Positions 31,609 through 42,975 of a stretch of DNA of 64,000 nt are shown piece after piece. The DNA is from Vulcanimicrobiota bacterium (GTDB lineage: Bacteria; Vulcanimicrobiota; Vulcanimicrobiia; Vulcanimicrobiales; Vulcanimicrobiaceae): assembly GCA_027459645.1 (NCBI GenBank), contig DAIDHQ010000019.1, forward strand, positions 1 through 64,000, in the 5' to 3' direction. Every line of letters begins with the position of its first letter. Position 1 is the first letter of the stretch. The notes beneath the pieces were generated by a model. The model saw only the letters and a list, made by a program, of their open reading frames with translations, did no database searches and was not told the origin of the DNA. A program made the translations under genes and the position numbers.

Positions 31609-32208
31609 ATGCAGATCGTTCTCGCCAGTGCCTCGCCCCGGAGGCTCGAATTGCTGCGCTCGCTCGGTCTCGACGTCGTCGTGCGTCCGAGCGCCTACAG
31701 CGAGCCCGACCACCCCGGCGCCACGCCGCTGGAACTTGCCGTGCGCCACGCGCGCGAAAAAGCAACCGACGTTCGCAGCGCAAGCGGCGGGGACGCGCTG
31801 ATCGTCGCCGCCGATACCGTCGTCGACCTCGACGGCGTGGCGCTCAATAAGCCGGCCGATGACGGGGATGCCATCCGCATGCTCTCCCTGCTTTCAGGCC
31901 GGGAACACCGCGTCCACACGGCATTCGCACTCGCCGTCCCCGGTAACGAGGCGTTGATCGAGCGCGCTTCGACGACCGCGGTACGCTTCTACCAGCTCTC
32001 GCGTGAGGAGATTGAGGACTACGTGGCAACCGGAGAGCCCATGGACAAGGCCGGCTCGTACGGGATTCAGGGGCGCGCCGCCGCCTTGGTCGAGGGCATC
32101 ACGGGCGACTTTTATACCGTGATGGGCTTTCCGCTCGGCCGCTTTATTCGAACGCTGCGCGAGTTAGGTATTTCGCTGCCGACAACGAAGAAAAGGCCAC
32201 AATACTAG
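31609..32208 (+). CDS. maf: Maf-type nucleoside triphosphate pyrophosphatase
   Basis: A 199-residue house-cleaning enzyme, probably of the dTTP/UTP (YhdE) type. The N-terminus IVLASASPRRLELL is the Maf signature, ADTVVDLDG contains the catalytic Asp, and KAGSYGIQGRAAALVEGI near 145-165 is typical of the YhdE branch. It leads a shape cluster of mreC, mreD and a PBP2 gene, an order seen in many bacteria, although mreB is absent here. Confidence 0.93.
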   Translation: MQIVLASASPRRLELLRSLGLDVVVRPSAYSEPDHPGATPLELAVRHAREKATDVRSASGGDALIVAADTVVDLDGVALNKPADDGDAIRMLSLLSGREHRVHTAFALAVPGNEALIERASTTAVRFYQLSREEIEDYVATGEPMDKAGSYGIQGRAAALVEGITGDFYTVMGFPLGRFIRTLRELGISLPTTKKRPQY

Positions 32209-32229
32209 GGCTTTCCGGGGGCCGGTTTC

Positions 32230-33039
32230 ATCTTTACCTATCGCGACGAACGCAAACTCTTTGCGCTGATCGCCGTCATAATCGTGGCGGCGTTGATCGC
32301 GCTCGTGCAAATCAGCTCGCAGCGCAGCGGAAACGAAAGTCCGCTGACGACCGCGGTGATGAGCGTTGCATCGTTCGTTGAAACGGCCGCGAGCACGACG
32401 ATCAACGGCACGCGCAGCGCGGGCGCGAGCGTACTTTCGCTGCCGCAACTGGTCTCGCAGAACAAGTCGCTGACCGAGCGCAACGCGAAACTGCAAGAGG
32501 AGAACGTGCAGCTGCACGAACTCGCCGCGCAGTACGCGGCCGAAGCTCGCGTGCGGCCCGTCGTCGATACGAATCCCGGCGGCGTAGAGGCGCGCGTCGT
32601 CGGCTTCCCGCCCGAAAACGAATCGCGCACGGTGACGATCGACAAAGGATCGGCCGCCGGAATCAAACCCAACGACGGCGTGCTGGCCGCCGGCGGCGTC
32701 GTCGGCGAAGTGCGCTCGGTCACGCCGTTCGCAAGCAAAGTCGTTCTCGTAACCGATTACACCAGCCGCATTCCCGTGATTACGCGCGCCGGCCGCTACT
32801 GGGGCATCGCGCGCGGCAATCTCGCAAGCGTGCGCGTCGAATACATTCCGCAAGACGCGAAACTCAAAATCGGCGACGTCGTCGTAACCGGCGAAGGACG
32901 CTCGTTCCACTCGGGCATTCCGCTCGGCACGATCGATCGCATCGAACGCGGCGATTCGACGCTGTATCAGATCGCCATCGTTAAACCGTCGGCTCCCATC
33001 GGCTCCCTCGATCGCGTTGTCGTCCTCACGAAACACTGA
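32230..33039 (+). CDS. mreC: Rod shape-determining protein MreC
   Basis: A protein of about 269 residues: short cytoplasmic tail (FTYRDERK), one transmembrane helix (LFALIAVIIVAALIALV), a coiled coil near residues 75-100 (LTERNAKLQEENVQLHELAA) and a periplasmic beta-rich domain that links MreB to the elongasome. The frame is open from the maf TAG at 32206-32208, but contains no ATG, GTG or TTG before GTG 32284, which lies inside the membrane helix. I place the start at the ATC at 32230, downstream of GGGGG; an atypical start or a sequence error are the options. Confidence 0.8.
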   Translation: MFTYRDERKLFALIAVIIVAALIALVQISSQRSGNESPLTTAVMSVASFVETAASTTINGTRSAGASVLSLPQLVSQNKSLTERNAKLQEENVQLHELAAQYAAEARVRPVVDTNPGGVEARVVGFPPENESRTVTIDKGSAAGIKPNDGVLAAGGVVGEVRSVTPFASKVVLVTDYTSRIPVITRAGRYWGIARGNLASVRVEYIPQDAKLKIGDVVVTGEGRSFHSGIPLGTIDRIERGDSTLYQIAIVKPSAPIGSLDRVVVLTKH

Positions 33040-33184
33040 GTGCTCCGCCCCATACGCAACGTGACAGCCGCTCCGCGCTTCCCCGTCGTCGCTTCGTCGC
33101 TCATCGGTCATAACGCCATGGCGTTGCTCCCTCTTCGCTCCTCGCGTCAACGAAAACTCGCTGTCGCTTTGTGTCACGCGGCGC
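33040..33184. other. 145-base gap between mreC and mreD with dyad symmetry
   Basis: The gap is rich in CGCTTC/CGCTCC words and contains a perfect 14-base palindrome AACGCCATGGCGTT (33112-33125). CGTGACA at 33060-33066 pairs with TGTCACG at 33172-33178. No convincing gene or promoter is visible; it breaks an otherwise tight operon, so it may be an inserted repeat or a folded RNA segment. Confidence 0.4.
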
Positions 33185-33709
33185 ATGGCGCGAAACACTA
33201 AACTGCACATTCCGCGCGCCGTCGCACCGACGTGGTGGATCGCCGCGTTGTGGTTGCTCGCGGCCGCGATCGCGCAAGTGACGCTGATGCATTACGCCGT
33301 CGTGCGCAATGTCGAACCGAGCCTCGTGCTGGTGGCGGTCGTTTGGTATGCGTTGCGCGTGAACGCGATGCAGGCGGCAGCGTACGGTCTTGCTGCGGGC
33401 CTCCTGGAAGACGTTCTTGCAACGGGCACCGGCGCGGCGTTCACGATTTCGACGATGCTCGCGGCGCTGGTGGCACAAAGTATTTCGCGCGGCTTCTTTG
33501 CCGATTCGCTTCCGCTCGTACTGACGATCACCGTTGCGGCCACGCTCGTACGCCAGTTGATTTTCTGGGTGGTGTGGGGCTTCGAAGGGTACCCGCCGGG
33601 CCTCGCATGGGTGCACTTTCATGAAGCAATCGGCGCCTGCGTTGCAAACGCGTTACTGATGCTGCTCGTGATGGCCATCGCTCGCCGCTTCGATTCACGC
33701 TACGCCTAA
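33185..33709 (+). CDS. mreD: Rod shape-determining protein MreD
   Basis: A 174-residue inner-membrane protein with five or six hydrophobic helices and a short basic cytoplasmic tail (MARNTKLHIP at the start, RRFDSRYA at the end). The placement between mreC and PBP2 and the segment YGLAAGLLEDVLATGTGAAF, common in MreD, support the name. Its stop codon shares a base with the ATG of the PBP2 gene (TAATG). Confidence 0.88.
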   Translation: MARNTKLHIPRAVAPTWWIAALWLLAAAIAQVTLMHYAVVRNVEPSLVLVAVVWYALRVNAMQAAAYGLAAGLLEDVLATGTGAAFTISTMLAALVAQSISRGFFADSLPLVLTITVAATLVRQLIFWVVWGFEGYPPGLAWVHFHEAIGACVANALLMLLVMAIARRFDSRYA

Positions 33710-35607
33710 TGGTTACCGATCGCCGCCGCGTTCCGCGCATTTCGTGGCAGAAGTCGCCGTGGCGCATCGCGGGCTTCATCGCCGTGATCGTCGTCGCGCT
33801 CCTGATCGTGCTCGGGCGGCTGGTTCAAGTGCAGATTTTCGAAGGTCAACAGTTCCGTGCGGCAGCTCAAGCCAATCAGATCCGCCTCATCAAAGTCGCC
33901 GCGCCGCGCGGGATGATTTACGATCGCAACGGCAAGGTGATGGTGCGCAACCGCCCGTCCTTCGTCGTCGGCTTGATCCCTTCGGAAATCACGAATATCA
34001 ATCACGTCTTGCACACGCTCGCCGGCGTTCTCGACGTTCCCGAAGCCTCGCTCGAGCACCGGTTGCTACACCACCGCGGCGTGAACTACATCAATTGCGG
34101 CGGGACGTTGTCGTCGTGTTTCGAGCAAGTGCAGGTATACGAACCCTACGGTCCCGTCGTGCTCGCAAACGACATTTCGGTCGCGAAGGTCGCGCGTTTG
34201 TCGGAACTGTTGAACGAATTGCCGGGCGTCGACTTGGAAGTGCAGCCGATTCGCGATTATCCGGGCGGCGTGACCGGCGCGGCCGTGTTCGGCTACGTCG
34301 GGCAGATCACGGAAGCCGAATATAAAAAGCGCAAAGGCGAAGGCTACACGCCCAACGACGTCATCGGCAAAGACGGCTTGGAGTGGTGGTACGACAAGTA
34401 TTTGCGCGGCGTACCGGGCGGCCAGCAAGTGCAGGTCGATTCGCAAGGCCAAGTCGTTCCCGGCGTGAAGCTTCCTTCGAAGAGCGCGATCCCCGGCGAC
34501 ACGTTGATCACGACGATCGACTGGCGACTGGAGAAGATCGCGCAGAAAGCGCTGCACGACGGCATTACCAAATGGGCGAACGGTAGGCAGCTTTCCGGCG
34601 CCGTCGTGATCGAGGATCCGTGGACCGGCGGCATTCTCGCGCTCGCGAGCAATCCGGAATTCAATCCGAATTACTTCGCCGCAGACAATTGGAAGATGGT
34701 CTCCAAGTATCTGCTCGATCCGGCCGATCCGCTCTTCGACAATGCGATCGGTGCCGCGACGCCGACGGGATCGACGTTCAAGATGGTGACCGGCACGGGC
34801 GTCATCAGCGAAGGGCTCGTGCGGCCGAACGAAATCGTCTACGACAGCGGCGCGTGGGATTGCGGAGGATATATCGCGCGCGATATCGTTTCGGGCGGAC
34901 TCGGCAATACGACCTTCGTACCGGCGCTCGCCGCCTCGTCGGACGGCTATTTCTACCAAATGGCGTGGCGCCTGGGACGCAAACGTTTGCGGAAGTGGGC
35001 GCTGCTCTTCGGGCTGGCAAAGAAGAGCGGCATCGATTTGCCGGGTGAGAACGCGGGGAACTGGCCGACGCCGGCGTGGGAGCTGAAGAACTTCGGCGTA
35101 CCGATGGAGCCGAGCGAAACGTGCATGAACGGCATCGGGCAGGGCGCGATGCAAGCGACGCCGCTGCAAATCGTCAACGTCGCATCGACGGTCATTAACG
35201 GCGGCACCCTGTGGCGTCCGCACATCGTCAGCGAAATTCGCACGCCGCAAGGCACCGTCATTAAACGCTTTCCGCCCACGCCGATCCGGCACGTGCCGGG
35301 AACGCCGGAAGCATTCGCCGCCGTTCGAAAGGGCATGGCGGAAGTGACCGATCCCGGCGGCACCGCGTACGGATTAAAGATTGAGGGCTTGCCGTTTAGC
35401 GGCAAGACCGGCACGGCCGAAACCGGCGTCAATGGTTCCGGCGCGAATACGACGTGGTTCGTTTGCTGGGCGCCGACCAATCATCCGGTGATGGCGATTG
35501 CCGTCTTCGTCGACCGCAGCGGCGGCTACGGCGCCAACGTCGCCGCGCCTATCGCACGCGAAATCATGGTCAAATACTTCAAGAAGAACCCGGCTTACAT
35601 TCAGTAG
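33709..35607 (+). CDS. mrdA: Penicillin-binding protein 2 (transpeptidase of the elongasome)
   Basis: A 632-residue class B PBP that cross-links peptidoglycan during side-wall growth. An N-terminal membrane helix (about 20-42) precedes the dimerisation region with AAPRGMIYDRNGKVM. The transpeptidase motifs are S-T-F-K at 355-358, S-S-D near 412 and KTGT at 566-569. The partner rodA gene and mreB are not adjacent, unlike in many bacteria. A two-cysteine loop (INCGGTLSSCF) near residue 130 is unusual. Confidence 0.94.
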   Translation: MVTDRRRVPRISWQKSPWRIAGFIAVIVVALLIVLGRLVQVQIFEGQQFRAAAQANQIRLIKVAAPRGMIYDRNGKVMVRNRPSFVVGLIPSEITNINHVLHTLAGVLDVPEASLEHRLLHHRGVNYINCGGTLSSCFEQVQVYEPYGPVVLANDISVAKVARLSELLNELPGVDLEVQPIRDYPGGVTGAAVFGYVGQITEAEYKKRKGEGYTPNDVIGKDGLEWWYDKYLRGVPGGQQVQVDSQGQVVPGVKLPSKSAIPGDTLITTIDWRLEKIAQKALHDGITKWANGRQLSGAVVIEDPWTGGILALASNPEFNPNYFAADNWKMVSKYLLDPADPLFDNAIGAATPTGSTFKMVTGTGVISEGLVRPNEIVYDSGAWDCGGYIARDIVSGGLGNTTFVPALAASSDGYFYQMAWRLGRKRLRKWALLFGLAKKSGIDLPGENAGNWPTPAWELKNFGVPMEPSETCMNGIGQGAMQATPLQIVNVASTVINGGTLWRPHIVSEIRTPQGTVIKRFPPTPIRHVPGTPEAFAAVRKGMAEVTDPGGTAYGLKIEGLPFSGKTGTAETGVNGSGANTTWFVCWAPTNHPVMAIAVFVDRSGGYGANVAAPIAREIMVKYFKKNPAYIQ

Positions 35608-35639: not shown

Positions 35640-35694
35640 TGTCATCCTGAGCGGCGCGTTTGCGCTTCGCGCAACAGCTCCGCTCAGAATGACA
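35640..35694 (+). repeat. Dispersed hairpin repeat, copy B
   Basis: Ends TGTCATCCTGAGCGG and CCGCTCAGAATGACA are inverted repeats with one mismatch. Inside is the stem TTGCGC/GCGCAA with loop TTC. The right end overlaps the 3' end of the minus-strand gene 35684-36001 and provides its TGA. It lies between two convergent genes. Confidence 0.8.
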
Positions 35695-36001
35695 AAGGGG
35701 CGCGAGCCGCGATCACCAGTAACGCCGCGTCGGCTGCTTCGCGCACCGTTGCATCCGGGTCGTCGCTGCGGATCTCGTTCAATTCCTCGACGCACCAGGG
35801 CTGGCCGACGATCGCAAGTCGCTCCACCCGATCGATGCGCAGTTCCAAATCGAGTTCCGCTTCGGGCGAGGGCGCTTCTGCAAGCGCGAGCGGCGGCGCG
35901 GTTTCTCGGCGCAACAGCGTCCCGACGACGAAGAGAATCGCGCCCAGCAAAAAGAGCGCGAGGATGAAAATGCCGAAGTGATTGTTGCTAGTCGACGGCA
36001 A
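35684..36001 (-). CDS. Small single-pass membrane protein with HEAT-like tail (module copy 2)
   Basis: A 105-residue protein: one N-terminal membrane helix (about 9-30, IFILALFLLGAILFVVGTLL), then Arg-Arg, an Ala/Pro/Glu linker, and a pair of helices (VERLAIVGQPWCVEEL, VREAADAALLVIAA) resembling one HEAT repeat. The RR after the helix suggests the tail is in the cytoplasm. The TTG start at 36001 overlaps the end of the giant gene by 14 bases. It matches in layout the protein at 39297-39710. The last residues and stop come from a dispersed repeat. Confidence 0.72.
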   Translation of the reverse strand: MPSTSNNHFGIFILALFLLGAILFVVGTLLRRETAPPLALAEAPSPEAELDLELRIDRVERLAIVGQPWCVEELNEIRSDDPDATVREAADAALLVIAARAPLSF

Positions 36002-39000
36002 TGTGAGCCGCGTTGCGCAGCGCGTCGAGCACCTGCGCGAGCGCTTGATCGAGCGTACGGTTTACGCTCGAAGTCAGCACGCGGTGGAACTCTTCGAGCG
36101 GCAGCTCGTTGAGCACGAGGAGCACGTTGAGCAATTCCGAGCGGTAGCGTTCCAACGCGTTGCGATCGGCAACGTCGTTGTAAATCGTCGTGCCGAGCAA
36201 TTGCGCGTTGACGAGCCACGGCGTCACCGATCCGACCGGCGTCGTCTCCAACTCCGGCATCAGCGAACGAACTACGTCGAGTTCGATCTGCCCTTCGATG
36301 CGAATCGTTCCGGGTGCGGGCGCTTGCGGTTTCGCGGTCGGCGCGAAGACCAGATCGTTCAGCAGGTTCATCAGCGCATCGCGGCCGTCGCGGTCTTCTA
36401 AATCCTTCGTTGTGAGCGACAAGCGCGGCATGCGCAAGCGCACGAAGAGGCGTTCGAGCGGCGCGCGCACGGCGCGGCTCGCGCCGGCAAAGGCTTGCGT
36501 CAATTGCTGCGGCGCATCGATCGCGTTTTCGGGGAAGAACATGCGCAGCGCAAAGAGGTGCTGCACCAAGCCGCCCGCACTGTCGCTGCGCTCGAGCATC
36601 TTAATGACGTTGGCCAAACGCTCCGGCGTGAAATCGATGAAGAGTACCGGCGTCGGCAGTTCGACTTCGGCTGCCGGTGCAACGAGCGATTCCGCGTGCT
36701 CGGCAACGATCTCCGCGATCGCGCGCGGCGGCGCTTCTTGCGCGACGGGCGGCATTTCGGCCGTTTCGACGGGTGCGAGTTCCGGCACCGACGGCGCCGC
36801 GATCGCTTCGTATTCCGGCGGAAGCCCCGGCGGTTCGTACGGAGGCGCGCCGGTCGGGAAGATCCGCGCGATCGAAATCGGCGTTCCGGCGATCGATTCG
36901 GTCAACGACGGTTGCGCTTGCACGCGAACCGTCGGTGCGGCGATCGCAAACGTCGTGCCTTCGCCCCATTCAAACACCGTGCGCGTATCGAGCGGCGTTC
37001 CGGCGGGAAGCGGCGCCATCACCATCATCTCCCAGCGCAAGCGCAGTTCGATGTTGGGATTGACGTCGGCCAGCACGAGGCCGCGCGCCGACCACAGTTG
37101 CGACGCGCCGGCGTCGTCGACAATCGGCATGCCGTTGATCGTCGTCGTCGACGGCACATAGACGGCAAGATTCGTCGGGACGACGCGAATGGTCAGCCGG
37201 TCCGCGGGCCCGTCGCCGTCGTTGCGCAAGCGAATTTCGTAATATAAGCGTTCGCCCGCGTTGACGAGCTCGCCCGGAATCGCAACGAGCTGCGCGCTCT
37301 GCGCGAACTGCGCTTCGGCGTGCGTCGGAACTTCGAGCGCGGGAAACTGCATCGGGCTGATGCCGCGACCGTGCAGCCATCCGTCGATCGCAAGCTTGCG
37401 GTTTCCGGCGACGGCGCTGAGCAGACGCAGCGTCAGACGCGCTTCGTGTACGCTCTCGGGAGCGACGTCGGCAAAGGCGATGCCTTCGCGATCGCGGCGC
37501 GCGTCGACCGCGCGTTCCACCACGAGTTCGGGCGGCAGGGTCAGCGCCAGCCGCGCCTCGCGCAACACGTCGGATCCGCCGTTATGCACGCGTACCACGA
37601 CGTCGATCGTGCGATTCGGACGCAACGCTTCGTTCGACGCGAGCTCCCATTCGACGCGATCGATCGCCGGACGCGAACGAATAACGAGCGTCGCCGTGCC
37701 CAAATCGACGGCCCCGTCGGCATGTTCGAGAATCACGCCGAGCGTAGCAGTCGAACGATCCGGCACCTTCGACGCGATTTTTGCGTGAACGGTAAAAATG
37801 CGTTCGTGGTGCGGGTTCACGACGCCGAGCGAAACCGGCTCGTTGTACGGCGCGCTTTCGCCCTGCTCTTCGCTCACGCGAAGTTCGGTCAGGTATAACC
37901 CCGGCATCAGCCGCAAACGCACGTCGGATTCGGGTGCGGTGCCGTCGTTATAGACGTGAACCGTAAACGAAACGTCCTCACGTGCCTGCGCGGCGCCGCG
38001 ATCCGCGTTGACGTAGTTGCGCGCGCGGCCGAAGCGTGGCGCGACGCGTACCGCCAAGCGGCGCGAGAAATTGCGTTCGCCGGTCTTCCAGCGCAGCGAC
38101 GCGCTGACGGGAAGCACTGTCTCGCCCGAGTGCGGCACGGCGACCGTTGCAGCGATGCCGACTTCGGCCATCCGGCCGGCCGGCAACGAGCCGAGCGAAA
38201 ACGCCAAACCTGGAATTGAATCGTCGCTGACCGGCTGCCCGTCGACCTGCGCCGAACCCGGAGCATACATCAGTCCGGGCGGTAAGATAAAGGCGAGCTG
38301 CATGCGCTCGGCGATGCCCGTTCCCGCGTTCATCGCGCGCAATACCATCGGCACGCGCATGCCCGGCGTCACCACGTCGTCGCTGAGCACCAGCAGTTGC
38401 GTTTCGTCGTTTTCGAAATCGACCGGCGAAGCGACGACGATCTCGGCCGAGGCGATCGGGAATTCGTTCAAGCCGCGTGCACCGACCGTGCCGGCCGCGC
38501 GGATGCGCGTGCCGTCGAGCAGCGGCGAATCGATCGTCGCCTGATATTCGACCTGCACCGATTGACCCGGCGCAAGCCGTTCGCTCACGACGGTCGAATT
38601 TTCGTAGTCGAAGACCTCGCCTTCGTTATTGACCAGGCGGCCGTCGATGCGCGTGCTGCGCGCCAGGTAGGTGGTATGTTCGGGCGTCGGAAGGATGAGC
38701 ACCACGTCGTGCGCGCTCGAAGAACCGCTGTTGCGGATCGTGGCGCGCACCGAGATGACGTCGCCGGGCTTGGGCGCCGGCGGCGCCGAGAGCGAGACCA
38801 GCGTTGCGCTGTTCTGCAGGTCGGGACGGCTGCGAACGGTGAGGCGCTCGATGTTCGAGGCGATGAGCCCCGTCTGGTCGGTCACGAGCGCGGCTTGAAA
38901 GACCATCTCGCTCGCGTCTTCGATCGTATCGTCGACCTTGAACGTGCACTGCACGCGCCGCTGCGCGTTCGGCTCCAGCTCGCCGATCGGCGCGCCGTTG

Positions 39001-39263
39001 GAATCGACGAAGCGCAACCCTTCGGCCAGCGGGGCGTCGTCGACGGTATCGGCCCCCTCGATGTGCGAGACGCCCTGCGGCAACGCGAAGCGCACGCGCA
39101 CGCCTGTCGCCGCGGCACCGCCGAGGTTCGAGAACGTGAATTGCGCGCGAATCGTATCGCCGGGCACGGTGGTGCGCGACGGATCGAGGCTAAGGGTCCG
39201 GAGTGTCTCGGGCAATGCCGGAGAGCCCGGGGAGAAAATGCCGGTCAACGTCGTGGACGACAC
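35988..39263 (-). CDS. Giant DUF11-like repeat protein (module copy 2)
   Basis: A 1,091-residue protein. From about residue 15 to 800 there are six beta-sandwich units of about 125-135 residues, each with the DUF11-like pattern of a Val-rich strand, N-x-G, hydrophobic strands and L-P-x-G (for example RATIRNSGSSSAHDVVL). A Pro/Ala/Glu-rich linker (800-870) leads to a helical domain from about 874 that begins FTPERLANVIKMLE and contains HLFALRMFFPE and LERLFVRLRMP. No signal peptide or membrane helix is visible, which is odd for DUF11. The GTG start at 39263 follows AAGGGGG. Unit order is colinear with the paralogue at 39712-42975. Confidence 0.8.
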   Translation of the reverse strand: MSSTTLTGIFSPGSPALPETLRTLSLDPSRTTVPGDTIRAQFTFSNLGGAAATGVRVRFALPQGVSHIEGADTVDDAPLAEGLRFVDSNGAPIGELEPNAQRRVQCTFKVDDTIEDASEMVFQAALVTDQTGLIASNIERLTVRSRPDLQNSATLVSLSAPPAPKPGDVISVRATIRNSGSSSAHDVVLILPTPEHTTYLARSTRIDGRLVNNEGEVFDYENSTVVSERLAPGQSVQVEYQATIDSPLLDGTRIRAAGTVGARGLNEFPIASAEIVVASPVDFENDETQLLVLSDDVVTPGMRVPMVLRAMNAGTGIAERMQLAFILPPGLMYAPGSAQVDGQPVSDDSIPGLAFSLGSLPAGRMAEVGIAATVAVPHSGETVLPVSASLRWKTGERNFSRRLAVRVAPRFGRARNYVNADRGAAQAREDVSFTVHVYNDGTAPESDVRLRLMPGLYLTELRVSEEQGESAPYNEPVSLGVVNPHHERIFTVHAKIASKVPDRSTATLGVILEHADGAVDLGTATLVIRSRPAIDRVEWELASNEALRPNRTIDVVVRVHNGGSDVLREARLALTLPPELVVERAVDARRDREGIAFADVAPESVHEARLTLRLLSAVAGNRKLAIDGWLHGRGISPMQFPALEVPTHAEAQFAQSAQLVAIPGELVNAGERLYYEIRLRNDGDGPADRLTIRVVPTNLAVYVPSTTTINGMPIVDDAGASQLWSARGLVLADVNPNIELRLRWEMMVMAPLPAGTPLDTRTVFEWGEGTTFAIAAPTVRVQAQPSLTESIAGTPISIARIFPTGAPPYEPPGLPPEYEAIAAPSVPELAPVETAEMPPVAQEAPPRAIAEIVAEHAESLVAPAAEVELPTPVLFIDFTPERLANVIKMLERSDSAGGLVQHLFALRMFFPENAIDAPQQLTQAFAGASRAVRAPLERLFVRLRMPRLSLTTKDLEDRDGRDALMNLLNDLVFAPTAKPQAPAPGTIRIEGQIELDVVRSLMPELETTPVGSVTPWLVNAQLLGTTIYNDVADRNALERYRSELLNVLLVLNELPLEEFHRVLTSSVNRTLDQALAQVLDALRNAAHIAVD

Positions 39264-39296
39264 GCTTCCCCCTTTCCCTCTCGCCCGCTGCGCGCC

Positions 39297-39710
39297 CTAG
39301 GAGCTTTGCGGAGTTTGGACATCGAGCAGCGAGAGCGTTTGCGCGATCCGGTCCGCGCGCGCGCCGGGGTGCGCGTTCAAAAAGCGTTCGACCATCGCGC
39401 GCCGGCCGCTGCCGGTGAGCGCGTGGGCCGCGGCAAGCGACACCGCTTCGGAGGGGTCGCTGAGCGCGTGCTCCAGCAGTTGCTGCGAGCGTTCGTCTTC
39501 GAGCGCCGCCACCGCGAAGATCATGTCGCACCGCGCCGATTCCGAGAGGCCCGCGAACTCGTCGCCCGCCTCGTGCGTCCACGCCGTCGTCACCTGCAGC
39601 GGCTCGCCTTCGCGTTTGGTGTAGGCGCGCTCTTTGGCCCGCGGCGCGAAATACGCGTACGCGGCTATCGCGATGCCGACCAGGATGACCGCAACGACGA
39701 CGACCGTCAT
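39297..39710 (-). CDS. Small single-pass membrane protein with HEAT-like tail (module copy 1)
   Basis: A 137-residue protein with an N-terminal membrane helix (about 2-22, VVVVAVILVGIAIAAYAYF), a basic stop-transfer segment (PRAKERAYTKR), and a helical tail. The tail contains DMIFAVAALEDERSQQLLEHAL and EAVSLAAAHALTGS, which look like HEAT-repeat helices. The charge pattern places the tail in the cytoplasm. The ATG is one base downstream of the giant gene stop, a strong sign of co-expression. Homologous in layout to 35684-36001. Confidence 0.74.
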   Translation of the reverse strand: MTVVVVAVILVGIAIAAYAYFAPRAKERAYTKREGEPLQVTTAWTHEAGDEFAGLSESARCDMIFAVAALEDERSQQLLEHALSDPSEAVSLAAAHALTGSGRRAMVERFLNAHPGARADRIAQTLSLLDVQTPQSS

Positions 39711-39711
39711 C

Positions 39712-42700
39712 TTAGACGGTGCTGGCGTGCAGCGAGGTGCGTACCACGTCGAGCGCCGCATCGAGCGCGACGTCGCGCCGTCGTTGCAGCGCGTCGAGAA
39801 ATTCGCTCGCGTCGCCGTCGACGAAGGCATCGAGCCGCTCGATCAGCATGGATCGATAGTGCGCGAGTTGCGGCGTTCCGTCGGGCAGCATGCGTGCCAT
39901 GATCGCCCACGGCAGCGCCGAAGCGAGTTCGGTTTCGCTCAAGCGCTCCCCAAGGTCCGCGATGGCATCGGCGTCGATGCTTCCACGCAGCACGACCGCG
40001 GCGTTCGGCGTTTCGGCGGCCGAACCGTGAACTGCAGCAAGATCGTGCACGAGCCGTTCCAGCGTCGCGCGCAGCGACGGCGTTTCGATGTCGCGCGGTG
40101 CGATCACATAGTTCGGCAAGCGAAGTTTGATGAAGAGCCGGTCGAGTTCGTCACGTAACCCTTCGCGCATCGACTCGACGGAGCCGACGTGCGCGTCGCC
40201 GATGACTTCGGGGAAGAATGCGCGCAGCGCGAACAGGTGCGTGATCAAACCGTCGAACCGCGCTTCATCGAGGAATCGAAGCACGCGCGCGTGCCGTTCC
40301 GGCGTAAAGCTGACGAGCACCCCGAGCGCATTGTCGGCGGCGAGCGATCCATCGACGTAACTGCCGTTGGTCCGATTCCCGTTGCTCGATGCGAGCGCCG
40401 GCACGTCGCCGTGCATGGGCATATATGCCTCGCGCGCGGCATTTATGCCGGATTCGCCGTTGACGGGCGTCGCCGGCGGCAGTTCCATGAAACGATCTTC
40501 GGTGAGCGCGCGCTGACCGCCGCTGAACGACGGTCCGACCATGCCGTCCAATCCGAACGGCAAGCCGGGAATCGCATTCGCGAAGACGGGTGTCGCGCGG
40601 ACTTTCAGTTCGTTGGAGAGCACTTCGTCGTCGCGATCGCCGTCGTATTGCACGCGCGCGACGCGCACGATCGCTTCGCCGGCCGGCAAACCGTTGTGCA
40701 CCACGTCGCGGAACTTGATCGTCGCTTCGACGCCCGGATCGACGTCGTTGAGTACGATGCCCCGATCGCTTGCAAGCGCGGAGTGCGCGCCGACGTCACG
40801 AATCGGCACGTCGTTGACGGTCGTAGAATTCGGTACGTAAATCAACGACTCGGGCTGCGCGCAGAAAATCTGCACGCGTCGTGCCGGGCCGTCGCCGCCG
40901 TTGCGGACGTGCAACGTCCATTCGATCGTTTCGCCGACGTCGACGACGTCGATCGGTTCGCTGCGCAGCGTACCGACGGAAAAATCCGGTTCGGCGGTGG
41001 TAACGATCGTCAGCCGGTCGAGCGGCACGGGAAGCATCGCATCGGCCGTCAATACGCCGTCGACCGTTACCGGATAATCTTTCGCGAGGCTTCGCAACAA
41101 CCGCAATCCCAAACGCGCTTCGGCGGTCGTACCGGGAGCGATCTCCCCAAAGACCAGCTTCGATTTCTCGCGCGTCGCACCGTCTACGGTTTCCAAGCGC
41201 GCTTCGGGAGAAACATAGAGACGCACGCGCACGTTGTGCGCGACGTCGCTGCCGACGTTCGTGAGTTTCACCAGCACGTTCGCAAGCTGGTTCGGACGCA
41301 GCGTCTCGTCGGTCTCGAGCGTAAACGCCGAACTCTTCGGCGAAAACGCGGGATGCGAGTCCGTCCGCCATGCCGCTTCACCGAGCGGCGTTTCGCCCAG
41401 TTCGCGGCTGTGGGCGCTGGCACCGATGCGAATCTCGCTGCGATCCGCGTACGGGCTGCGCAGACGCGCGCGCAGATGCAGACGGCGCGTGGCATACGAT
41501 TCGAGCGTACCGATTTCGGCCGCATCGCCGTCGAGGGCGACGCGCGCGTTCTTTTCGGAGAGGCGGACTTCTTCGAGCGCGGGATCGAGACGCAGATGCA
41601 GCACCAGGTCGGTCGCGGGCGCGCTGCCGTCGTTGCCGAGCAAAATCTCCGCTTCCACTTCCTCGCCCGGATGCACGATCTCGCCGCTGGCGCGCACGAT
41701 GGCGTTGCGGCGAGCGGGCAGGGCGGGTTGCGAATGGACGCTGACGACGCGGTCGAAGCGGCGCTCGGAGCGATCGCCGGCCGGCTCCCAGCTCAGCGTT
41801 GCCGCCACCGGCAGGGTGGCGTCGTCGGGTAGCGGCGATGCAACCATCGCTTCGCAGCGCAACTCGACGCGTTCGTCCGAATCGATCCGGCCGAGTTCGA
41901 AGCTCAAGCCGTCCTTTTTCTTCGTTTCTCTGAGCGGCCGGCCGTCGATCGAGGTGGCGCCCCGCACCGGCAGAAGACCGTCGGGAAGCTCGAGCGCGGC
42001 GACGACGTTCTCGGCGGCCGCGGAACCCGCGTTGTGCGCGATCAGCACCATCGTGACGCGATGGCCGGGCCGGACGTCGTGCGAGGGTTCGATCGAAAAC
42101 GTGGTGCGGTCGTCCTCGAATTCGGGGGCCGACCGGACGGTCAGCGACGCCGGTTCCAGATCGAACGCGGCCGTTTCTTGCGATGCGACGACCGCGCGGG
42201 CGACGATCGAGGTTCCGTCGTCGAGCGGCGAATCGACGCGCACCCGGTAAATGACGGTTGCACTGGCGCTCGCGGCGAGCGCGCTCGTGACGATCGGCGC
42301 GTAGACGCGGTCGAACGGCAGGCCCAGATCGCGCTCGATCTCCCGGCCGTTCACGCGGGCGGAATTCGGAACGTAGGTGGTGTGCTCGGGGATCGGCGCC
42401 ACCACGACGACATCGCGCGCGCTCGACTCGCCGGCGTTATGGACGCGTACCGTCACCTGCGCCTCGGTACCGGGCGTCGGAACCGCGCTACGCGACTCGA
42501 TGGTAACGCCGGTCAGATTGTTGCTGAGTTGCGGCCGGCTGCGCGCGATCAGGCGGACGATGTTCGACCCGACCGGCGCCACCTCGAACGAGGCGACCGC
42601 CGCTTGCAGTTCGATCGTCGTGCCGTTCTCGATCGCGCCCGCGACGCTGTACGAAATTTCGATCCGGCGCTCTTCGCCGGGCGCCACGTCGCCAATGTGC

Positions 42701-42975
42701 GCGCCGGAGCGCGAAAGCAACGGAGAGTTGCCGTGCTCGTCGTCGAGATTGACCGAGTCCAATTCGCCCGTGCCGACGAGATAGACGAGGCCGTCCGGCA
42801 GATTGAAGCGCACGCGGACTCCCGTTGCGGGCGCGCCGCCTTGATTACGGAACGTGAACGCTGCACGCACCGTCATTCCAGGTTCCAACTCGCGGTCGGG
42901 CGAAACGACGAGCGTTCGGAGGCCCTCCGGCAACGTCGGTGCACCTGGCGCAAAAACTTCCGACAGGGTCCGCAT
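39712..42975 (-). CDS. Giant DUF11-like repeat protein (module copy 1)
   Basis: A 1,087-residue paralogue of 35988-39263. The N-terminus RTLSEVFAPGAPTLPEGLR aligns with TGIFSPGSPALPETLR of the other copy. Six DUF11-like units follow in the same order, with matching landmarks such as PEHTTYVPNSARVNG in unit two and YVPNSTTVNDVPI in unit six. A Gly/Ser/Asn-rich linker ends near residue 885, then the helical domain FTPERHARVLRFLDE, HLFALRAFFPE, LDRLFIKLRLP. No signal peptide, membrane helix or sortase-type tail. ATG 42975 was preferred to in-frame upstream starts that enter the divergent aminotransferase. Confidence 0.8.
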   Translation of the reverse strand: MRTLSEVFAPGAPTLPEGLRTLVVSPDRELEPGMTVRAAFTFRNQGGAPATGVRVRFNLPDGLVYLVGTGELDSVNLDDEHGNSPLLSRSGAHIGDVAPGEERRIEISYSVAGAIENGTTIELQAAVASFEVAPVGSNIVRLIARSRPQLSNNLTGVTIESRSAVPTPGTEAQVTVRVHNAGESSARDVVVVAPIPEHTTYVPNSARVNGREIERDLGLPFDRVYAPIVTSALAASASATVIYRVRVDSPLDDGTSIVARAVVASQETAAFDLEPASLTVRSAPEFEDDRTTFSIEPSHDVRPGHRVTMVLIAHNAGSAAAENVVAALELPDGLLPVRGATSIDGRPLRETKKKDGLSFELGRIDSDERVELRCEAMVASPLPDDATLPVAATLSWEPAGDRSERRFDRVVSVHSQPALPARRNAIVRASGEIVHPGEEVEAEILLGNDGSAPATDLVLHLRLDPALEEVRLSEKNARVALDGDAAEIGTLESYATRRLHLRARLRSPYADRSEIRIGASAHSRELGETPLGEAAWRTDSHPAFSPKSSAFTLETDETLRPNQLANVLVKLTNVGSDVAHNVRVRLYVSPEARLETVDGATREKSKLVFGEIAPGTTAEARLGLRLLRSLAKDYPVTVDGVLTADAMLPVPLDRLTIVTTAEPDFSVGTLRSEPIDVVDVGETIEWTLHVRNGGDGPARRVQIFCAQPESLIYVPNSTTVNDVPIRDVGAHSALASDRGIVLNDVDPGVEATIKFRDVVHNGLPAGEAIVRVARVQYDGDRDDEVLSNELKVRATPVFANAIPGLPFGLDGMVGPSFSGGQRALTEDRFMELPPATPVNGESGINAAREAYMPMHGDVPALASSNGNRTNGSYVDGSLAADNALGVLVSFTPERHARVLRFLDEARFDGLITHLFALRAFFPEVIGDAHVGSVESMREGLRDELDRLFIKLRLPNYVIAPRDIETPSLRATLERLVHDLAAVHGSAAETPNAAVVLRGSIDADAIADLGERLSETELASALPWAIMARMLPDGTPQLAHYRSMLIERLDAFVDGDASEFLDALQRRRDVALDAALDVVRTSLHASTV

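Follow-up and report, generated by a model that had tools for sequence, protein, structure and literature searches.

Domains of the DUF11, CARDB and NEW3 types are commonly extracellular. FimV and HubP are inner-membrane proteins with a long cytoplasmic part that organise pili or flagella and interact with diguanylate cyclases (PMC12918733, PMC7033161). Each consists of one protein, in which a LysM-like domain lies in the periplasm and a TPR domain at the C terminus (PMC12918733). Here we describe a module of two giant and two small proteins encoded in a 64,000-nucleotide stretch of DNA (the window) from a genome of 3.14 Mb in the phylum Candidatus Eremiobacterota.

Like FimV and HubP, the module is proposed to place a long cytoplasmic part at the inner membrane. 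Unlike them, it divides its components between two genes and combines a HEAT anchor with a beta-sandwich array, and none of the four module proteins has a Pfam match to a LysM or TPR (FimV) domain at E ≤ 1. The giants share with DUF11 surface proteins (PF01345, TIGR01451) the tandem DUF11-type units, which score above curated cut-offs, but they lack a signal peptide or surface anchor and have an apparently new C-terminal domain (CTD) and an obligate-looking partner gene for a transmembrane (TM) HEAT protein. The predicted cytoplasmic helices of the small proteins match the profiles of HEAT-repeat proteins (PF13646) as well as solved alphaRep and HEAT structures, although here a lone TM helix carries only about one to three helix pairs. 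Foldseek matched the giant's beta array best to ciliary central-apparatus proteins, which are intracellular and contain tandem Ig-like domains; the fold is a common one, and the 9-12% identity and very low TM-scores give no sign of kinship. A literature search returned no report of cytoplasmic DUF11 scaffolds, nor of HEAT proteins associated with pili.

Layout of the giant-small module

The module consists of giant A, small A, giant B and small B (Table 1). A single base separates giant A from small A, 33 bases separate small A from giant B, and small B and giant B share 14 bases. The two giants align colinearly, with 34% identity overall and 31-32% between their CTDs, and the motifs FTPER, HLFALR.FFPE and RLF..LR.P are found in both; the two small proteins form one profile family. 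We read A and B as paralogues arranged in tandem, each provided with a proposed small tether. In a CTD tree, A falls in a supported clade, but the tree gives no date for the A/B duplication because several branches are long and unstable. A first-pass annotation of the window had described the module, and its coordinates and lengths for the four minus-strand genes, the colinearity and shared C-terminal motifs of the giants, the common HEAT-like type of the small proteins (borne out by their family profile) and the DUF11-like repeats were all borne out. The giants score 114.8 and 92.2 bits against Pfam DUF11 (PF01345), for which the curated cut-off is 24.6.

Table 1. Positions of the module genes and of the domains of the giants in the window
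Feature	Position	Strand	Description
Giant A	39712..42975	-	1087 aa, ATG start; six DUF11-type beta-sandwiches, linker and CTD; no signal peptide
Giant A residues 1-23	42907..42975	-	highest conservation in the protein; possible docking peptide
Giant A beta-sandwich array, residues 20-793	40597..42918	-	predicted, AlphaFold2 model
Giant A disordered linker, residues 794-882	40330..40596	-	predicted, AlphaFold2 model
Giant A CTD, residues 883-1087	39715..40329	-	possibly two beta-alpha4 units
Small A	39297..39710	-	137 aa; TM helix at about residues 3-21, basic stretch, linker, HEAT-like helices
Giant B	35988..39263	-	1091 aa, GTG start; colinear paralogue of giant A
Giant B CTD	36000..36647	-	31-32% identical to the CTD of giant A
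Small B	35684..36001	-	105 aa, TTG start; TM helix at about residues 11-29 and HEAT-like helix pair

The AlphaFold2 model of giant A predicts six beta-sandwiches, a disordered linker and a mainly helical CTD (residues 883-1086), with a mean pLDDT of 72 and a pTM of 0.33, so that the arrangement of the domains relative to one another is unreliable. Residues 1-19 are predicted to be disordered, yet conservation in the protein peaks at residues 5-23. The N-terminal peptide of the giant is LSEVFAPGAPTLPEGLRTL; the start peptide takes the form M[RS]TL[ST]E[VI]FAPG...LPEGLRTL in the A type and SLTGIFAPG...ESLRTL in the B type. Conservation of a segment predicted to be disordered is the pattern expected of a docking peptide, which may be its role. 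No hydrophobic N-terminal segment was detected by hydropathy scan in the giants examined, and the absence of a signal peptide, as first annotated, extends to their orthologues. Domain profile searches revealed no signalling domain in the giants or small proteins. Similarly, neither these proteins nor the pilus-operon CTD protein described below match profiles of the core type IV pilus families (PilM, N, O, Q, B, C, T).

The module is flanked by convergent mreC-mreD-PBP2 genes and a divergent aminotransferase gene, and lies about 20 kb from a dnaA-like gene; gene names around it were mostly read by eye. The mre locus of the window (31609-35607) reads Maf-MreC-MreD-PBP2, with no mreB. A role in anti-phage defence was rejected, as the one weak PADLOC match (Cas7_IIIh, E = 0.0086) was taken as chance.

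The C-terminal domain and its membrane-bound partner

The CTD is about 205 aa long. A search of 149 genomes of the phylum with profile A1 detected it in 81, and all of those among the matches listed belong to two families of one order. Searches of Pfam, NCBIfam and PDB sequences gave the CTD no significant match. Foldseek returned nothing at E ≤ 0.001, and VIA Z scores stayed below 5 for a CTD model with a mean pLDDT of 68. Candidate fold relatives were rejected; they were low-scoring helical-bundle matches only, which leave room for a known fold. The model reads roughly as a strand followed by four helices, twice, and a profile comparison of one half with the other scored 27.7, with a probability of only 52%, while none of 30 column-shuffled controls exceeded 15.3. 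The profile and the model are suggestive of an internal duplication.

In the small proteins, Lys and Arg are richer after the TM helix than before it in 33 of 34 cases, the remaining one being equal. From this charge pattern, an N-out, C-in topology with cytoplasmic HEAT tails is a well-supported prediction. HEAT (PF13646) is matched at E ≤ 0.01 by 15 of 20 family members, at best with 3.7e-5; small A itself scores 20.8 bits, under the gathering cut-off of 27.7. A profile of the small A group matches both an alphaRep structure (3.9e-26) and a HEAT protein of natural origin (2.9e-10). A single weak OmdA match in small A, confined to one member, was dropped.

A HEAT-protein gene is adjacent on the downstream side or fused at 83 of the 87 CTD loci with enough contig to judge, a count that comes from related genomes and does not represent independent events. 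Two of the four unpaired loci (L061 and L059) show a HEAT-like partner on inspection. Further, ten genomes of genus g25 fuse TM-HEAT in frame to the CTD, with the CTD attached on the same side of the TM helix as HEAT; the fusion protein at L049 has 393 aa. A simple codon-usage script supplied the gene calls beyond the window, and the genomes are mostly metagenome assemblies; G009, a single-contig genome, also carries giant-small pairs. At the sequence level, no outcome that would count against the first-pass annotation was seen. Several of its expectations are supported here: no described family was found for the CTD by profile search or Foldseek, the tails of the small proteins are predicted to be cytoplasmic by charge pattern in 33 of 34, and the pairing of giant and small genes is near constant, with natural fusions in addition. 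Of its proposed cytoplasmic scaffold at the inner membrane, the predicted topology and the pairing make a membrane-tethered, cytoplasmic giant-small complex well supported, whereas the term scaffold goes further and remains our interpretation.

Many genomes of the same family retain, apart from some losses, the order Obg-NadD-Maf-MreC-MreD-PBP2, small B-giant B-small A-giant A, aminotransferase-TrpS-ThiD, and their giant A orthologues have 50-79% identity. Since this order recurs in many related genomes, the four-gene module is not a product of chance. In family f2, one giant and one small protein adjoin the same aminotransferase gene, with no PBP2 seen within the 20-kb giant locus. Among relatives, the beta-sandwich array ranges from six units to almost none, and several g19 genomes have a giant B reduced to little beyond its CTD. 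Judged from the fusions and the shrunken giant B, CTD plus TM-HEAT is the constant core and the beta array is the variable part.

Other relatives were seen in the same survey. A further CTD paralogue of about 730-950 aa, seen in genera g9 and g20 (L075-L078, L084), has a Crp-like regulator as its neighbor and, where checked, a TM small protein of about 124 aa. The giant-small pair of the four f2 genomes faces a convergent gene identified only by eye as flagellin-like (L058 6323-7678; also L055, L056, L057). Separate DUF11-type proteins with no CTD occur in a four-gene operon (L067 8849-10909, L072 3183-5345, L074 6439-8586), and the proteins of this operon mostly begin with a hydrophobic segment and are apparently exported. 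A DUF11 giant with a CTD-like ORF by an ExeA-type ATPase gene in G056 (L060) was dropped, as the match did not recur in the phylum search.

Pilus operons and flagellar clusters

What is new here is that CTD and HEAT pairs homologous to the module sit inside type IV pilus operons. The pilus-operon form of the CTD occurs in eight genomes. Seven of them show the order PilQ, CTD protein, HEAT protein, PilT, and the contig of the eighth breaks off within the CTD protein; the eight may stem from one ancestral event and are not eight independent observations. The pilus-operon CTD protein is homologous to the CTD of the giants (hhalign 98.2%, E = 5e-14, 195 columns), and Pfam matched secretin, PilM and T2SSE ATPase in one of these genomes. 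Several of the HEAT ORFs start with hydrophobic and then basic residues, and BLAST links their HEAT parts to the f2 small proteins. No giant was found at the PBP2-aminotransferase site in the six pilus-operon genomes inspected.

One of the four f2 genomes (G038) has, in a pilus operon, a DUF11 giant of 1026 aa that includes a CTD, along with a small partner bearing a TM segment; the other three have no pilus-linked giant. This operon also encodes PilB (T2SSE, MshEN), a second T2SSE ATPase, PilC (T2SSF), a prepilin peptidase, a secretin, and GGDEF and HD-GYP proteins. Because of the PilQ-PilT genomes and this f2 genome, two families are seen, by homology and gene order, to place the CTD and HEAT pair in pilus operons. 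In the genome of the window, secretin, pilin and T2SSE genes lie elsewhere and the module is not part of a pilus operon, and we infer a pilus role for this copy only indirectly. Type IV pili drive the movement of Vulcanimicrobium alpinus, a relative that has been cultured (PMC9758169).

In the genome of the window, a protein of about 500 aa with one DUF11 unit is encoded between an ExeA-like AAA ATPase and a glycosyltransferase, by FliD/FliS (L065 7951-11170, G000:C12). The same set of ExeA-like, DUF11 plus CTD-like and glycosyltransferase genes occurs in L063, L066, L068-L071 and L073, and a conserved peptide, SADMRLLELQR, opens the protein. There is a match between the last unit of this protein and the first half of the CTD (95%, E = 3.8e-8), which suggests that use of the CTD may not be restricted to a single surface machine. 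These flagellar-cluster loci yielded no TM-HEAT partner.

A proposed tethered scaffold and its alternatives

We favor, at a probability of about one half, a model in which the module is a tethered scaffold linked to pili. The products of each gene pair would assemble into a single complex, anchored at the inner membrane on its cytoplasmic side. The small protein would span the membrane once, with its N terminus outside, and its cytoplasmic HEAT helices would grip the CTD of the giant by direct contact. From there the giant would reach into the cytoplasm through the flexible linker and then the beta-sandwich rod, which may act as a spacer of variable length. The tip of the rod would be the highly conserved, flexible N-terminal peptide, which could dock a client; the likeliest candidate is a type IV pilus-class machine that spans the envelope, contacted through its motor ATPases or inner-membrane platform. 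Points against the model are that the window's own copy lies outside pilus operons, that one f2 genome of four has the pilus-linked giant, that many g52 genomes have no CTD, and that the predicted domain arrangement of giant A is unreliable. A broader form of the idea, which we put forward tentatively as a possibility, is that an Ig-type rod bearing the CTD, together with a TM-HEAT anchor, makes up a lineage-specific, interchangeable internal scaffold for envelope machines (type IV pili, and a flagellar cluster via the related CTD protein), built on a domain unlike any described.

The surroundings of the module raise the question of cell-wall elongation. The giants could organise MreC-MreD-PBP2 from the cytoplasm, having taken over from the MreB of the locus: their position beside mreC-mreD-PBP2 is conserved in one family, and genomes with the A+B module do not have the divergent mreB that many relatives, giant-less ones included, have between Maf and MreC (L093-L107 examined). 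Judged from gene content, the locus MreB is lost in part of the family, with another MreB kept elsewhere in the genome; this second MreB occurs widely across the phylum, the genome of the window included, which speaks against a takeover. A necessary link between giants and MreB replacement was rejected, as genomes of genus g52, many of which have no CTD by profile search, lack both giants and locus mreB, and those of genus g9 and family f2 have both. The module is also convergent with PBP2, and so not co-transcribed with it, and the f2 giant keeps the aminotransferase neighbor with no PBP2 in its 20-kb locus. We consider an elongasome scaffold quite unlikely.

Signalling genes near several relatives bring up a different role, in which the pair would be a membrane-anchored platform for a signalling pathway, based on cyclic di-GMP or on a Crp-type regulator, that governs surface behavior, and would not be a structural part of a machine. 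GGDEF genes lie near the pilus-operon pairs, with both GGDEF and HD-GYP in the f2 operon, a Crp-like regulator adjoins the copies of about 900 aa in g9 and g20, and a PAS-GAF-SpoIIE-HATPase protein is encoded directly downstream of the small gene in G009. Against this, giants and small proteins have no signalling domain of their own, and there is no regulator gene in the four-gene module of the window or directly beside it; such an adaptor seems unlikely. Export to the surface or periplasm without a classical signal would fit the usual location of DUF11, CARDB and NEW3 domains. We hold it to be very improbable, given the missing signal peptide in the giants examined, the predicted inside location of the small-protein tails, the fusion of the CTD on the HEAT side of the TM helix, and the cytosolic-type AAA ATPase gene that adjoins the flagellar-cluster relative.

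DUF11 arrays are usually treated as extracellular, and conserved, tethered cytoplasmic arrays would, if true, correct annotations. Further, the conserved pairing, the fusions that occur naturally and the pilus-operon locations make the tethered scaffold linked to pili a testable claim about how surface machines may be organised in a poorly studied phylum.
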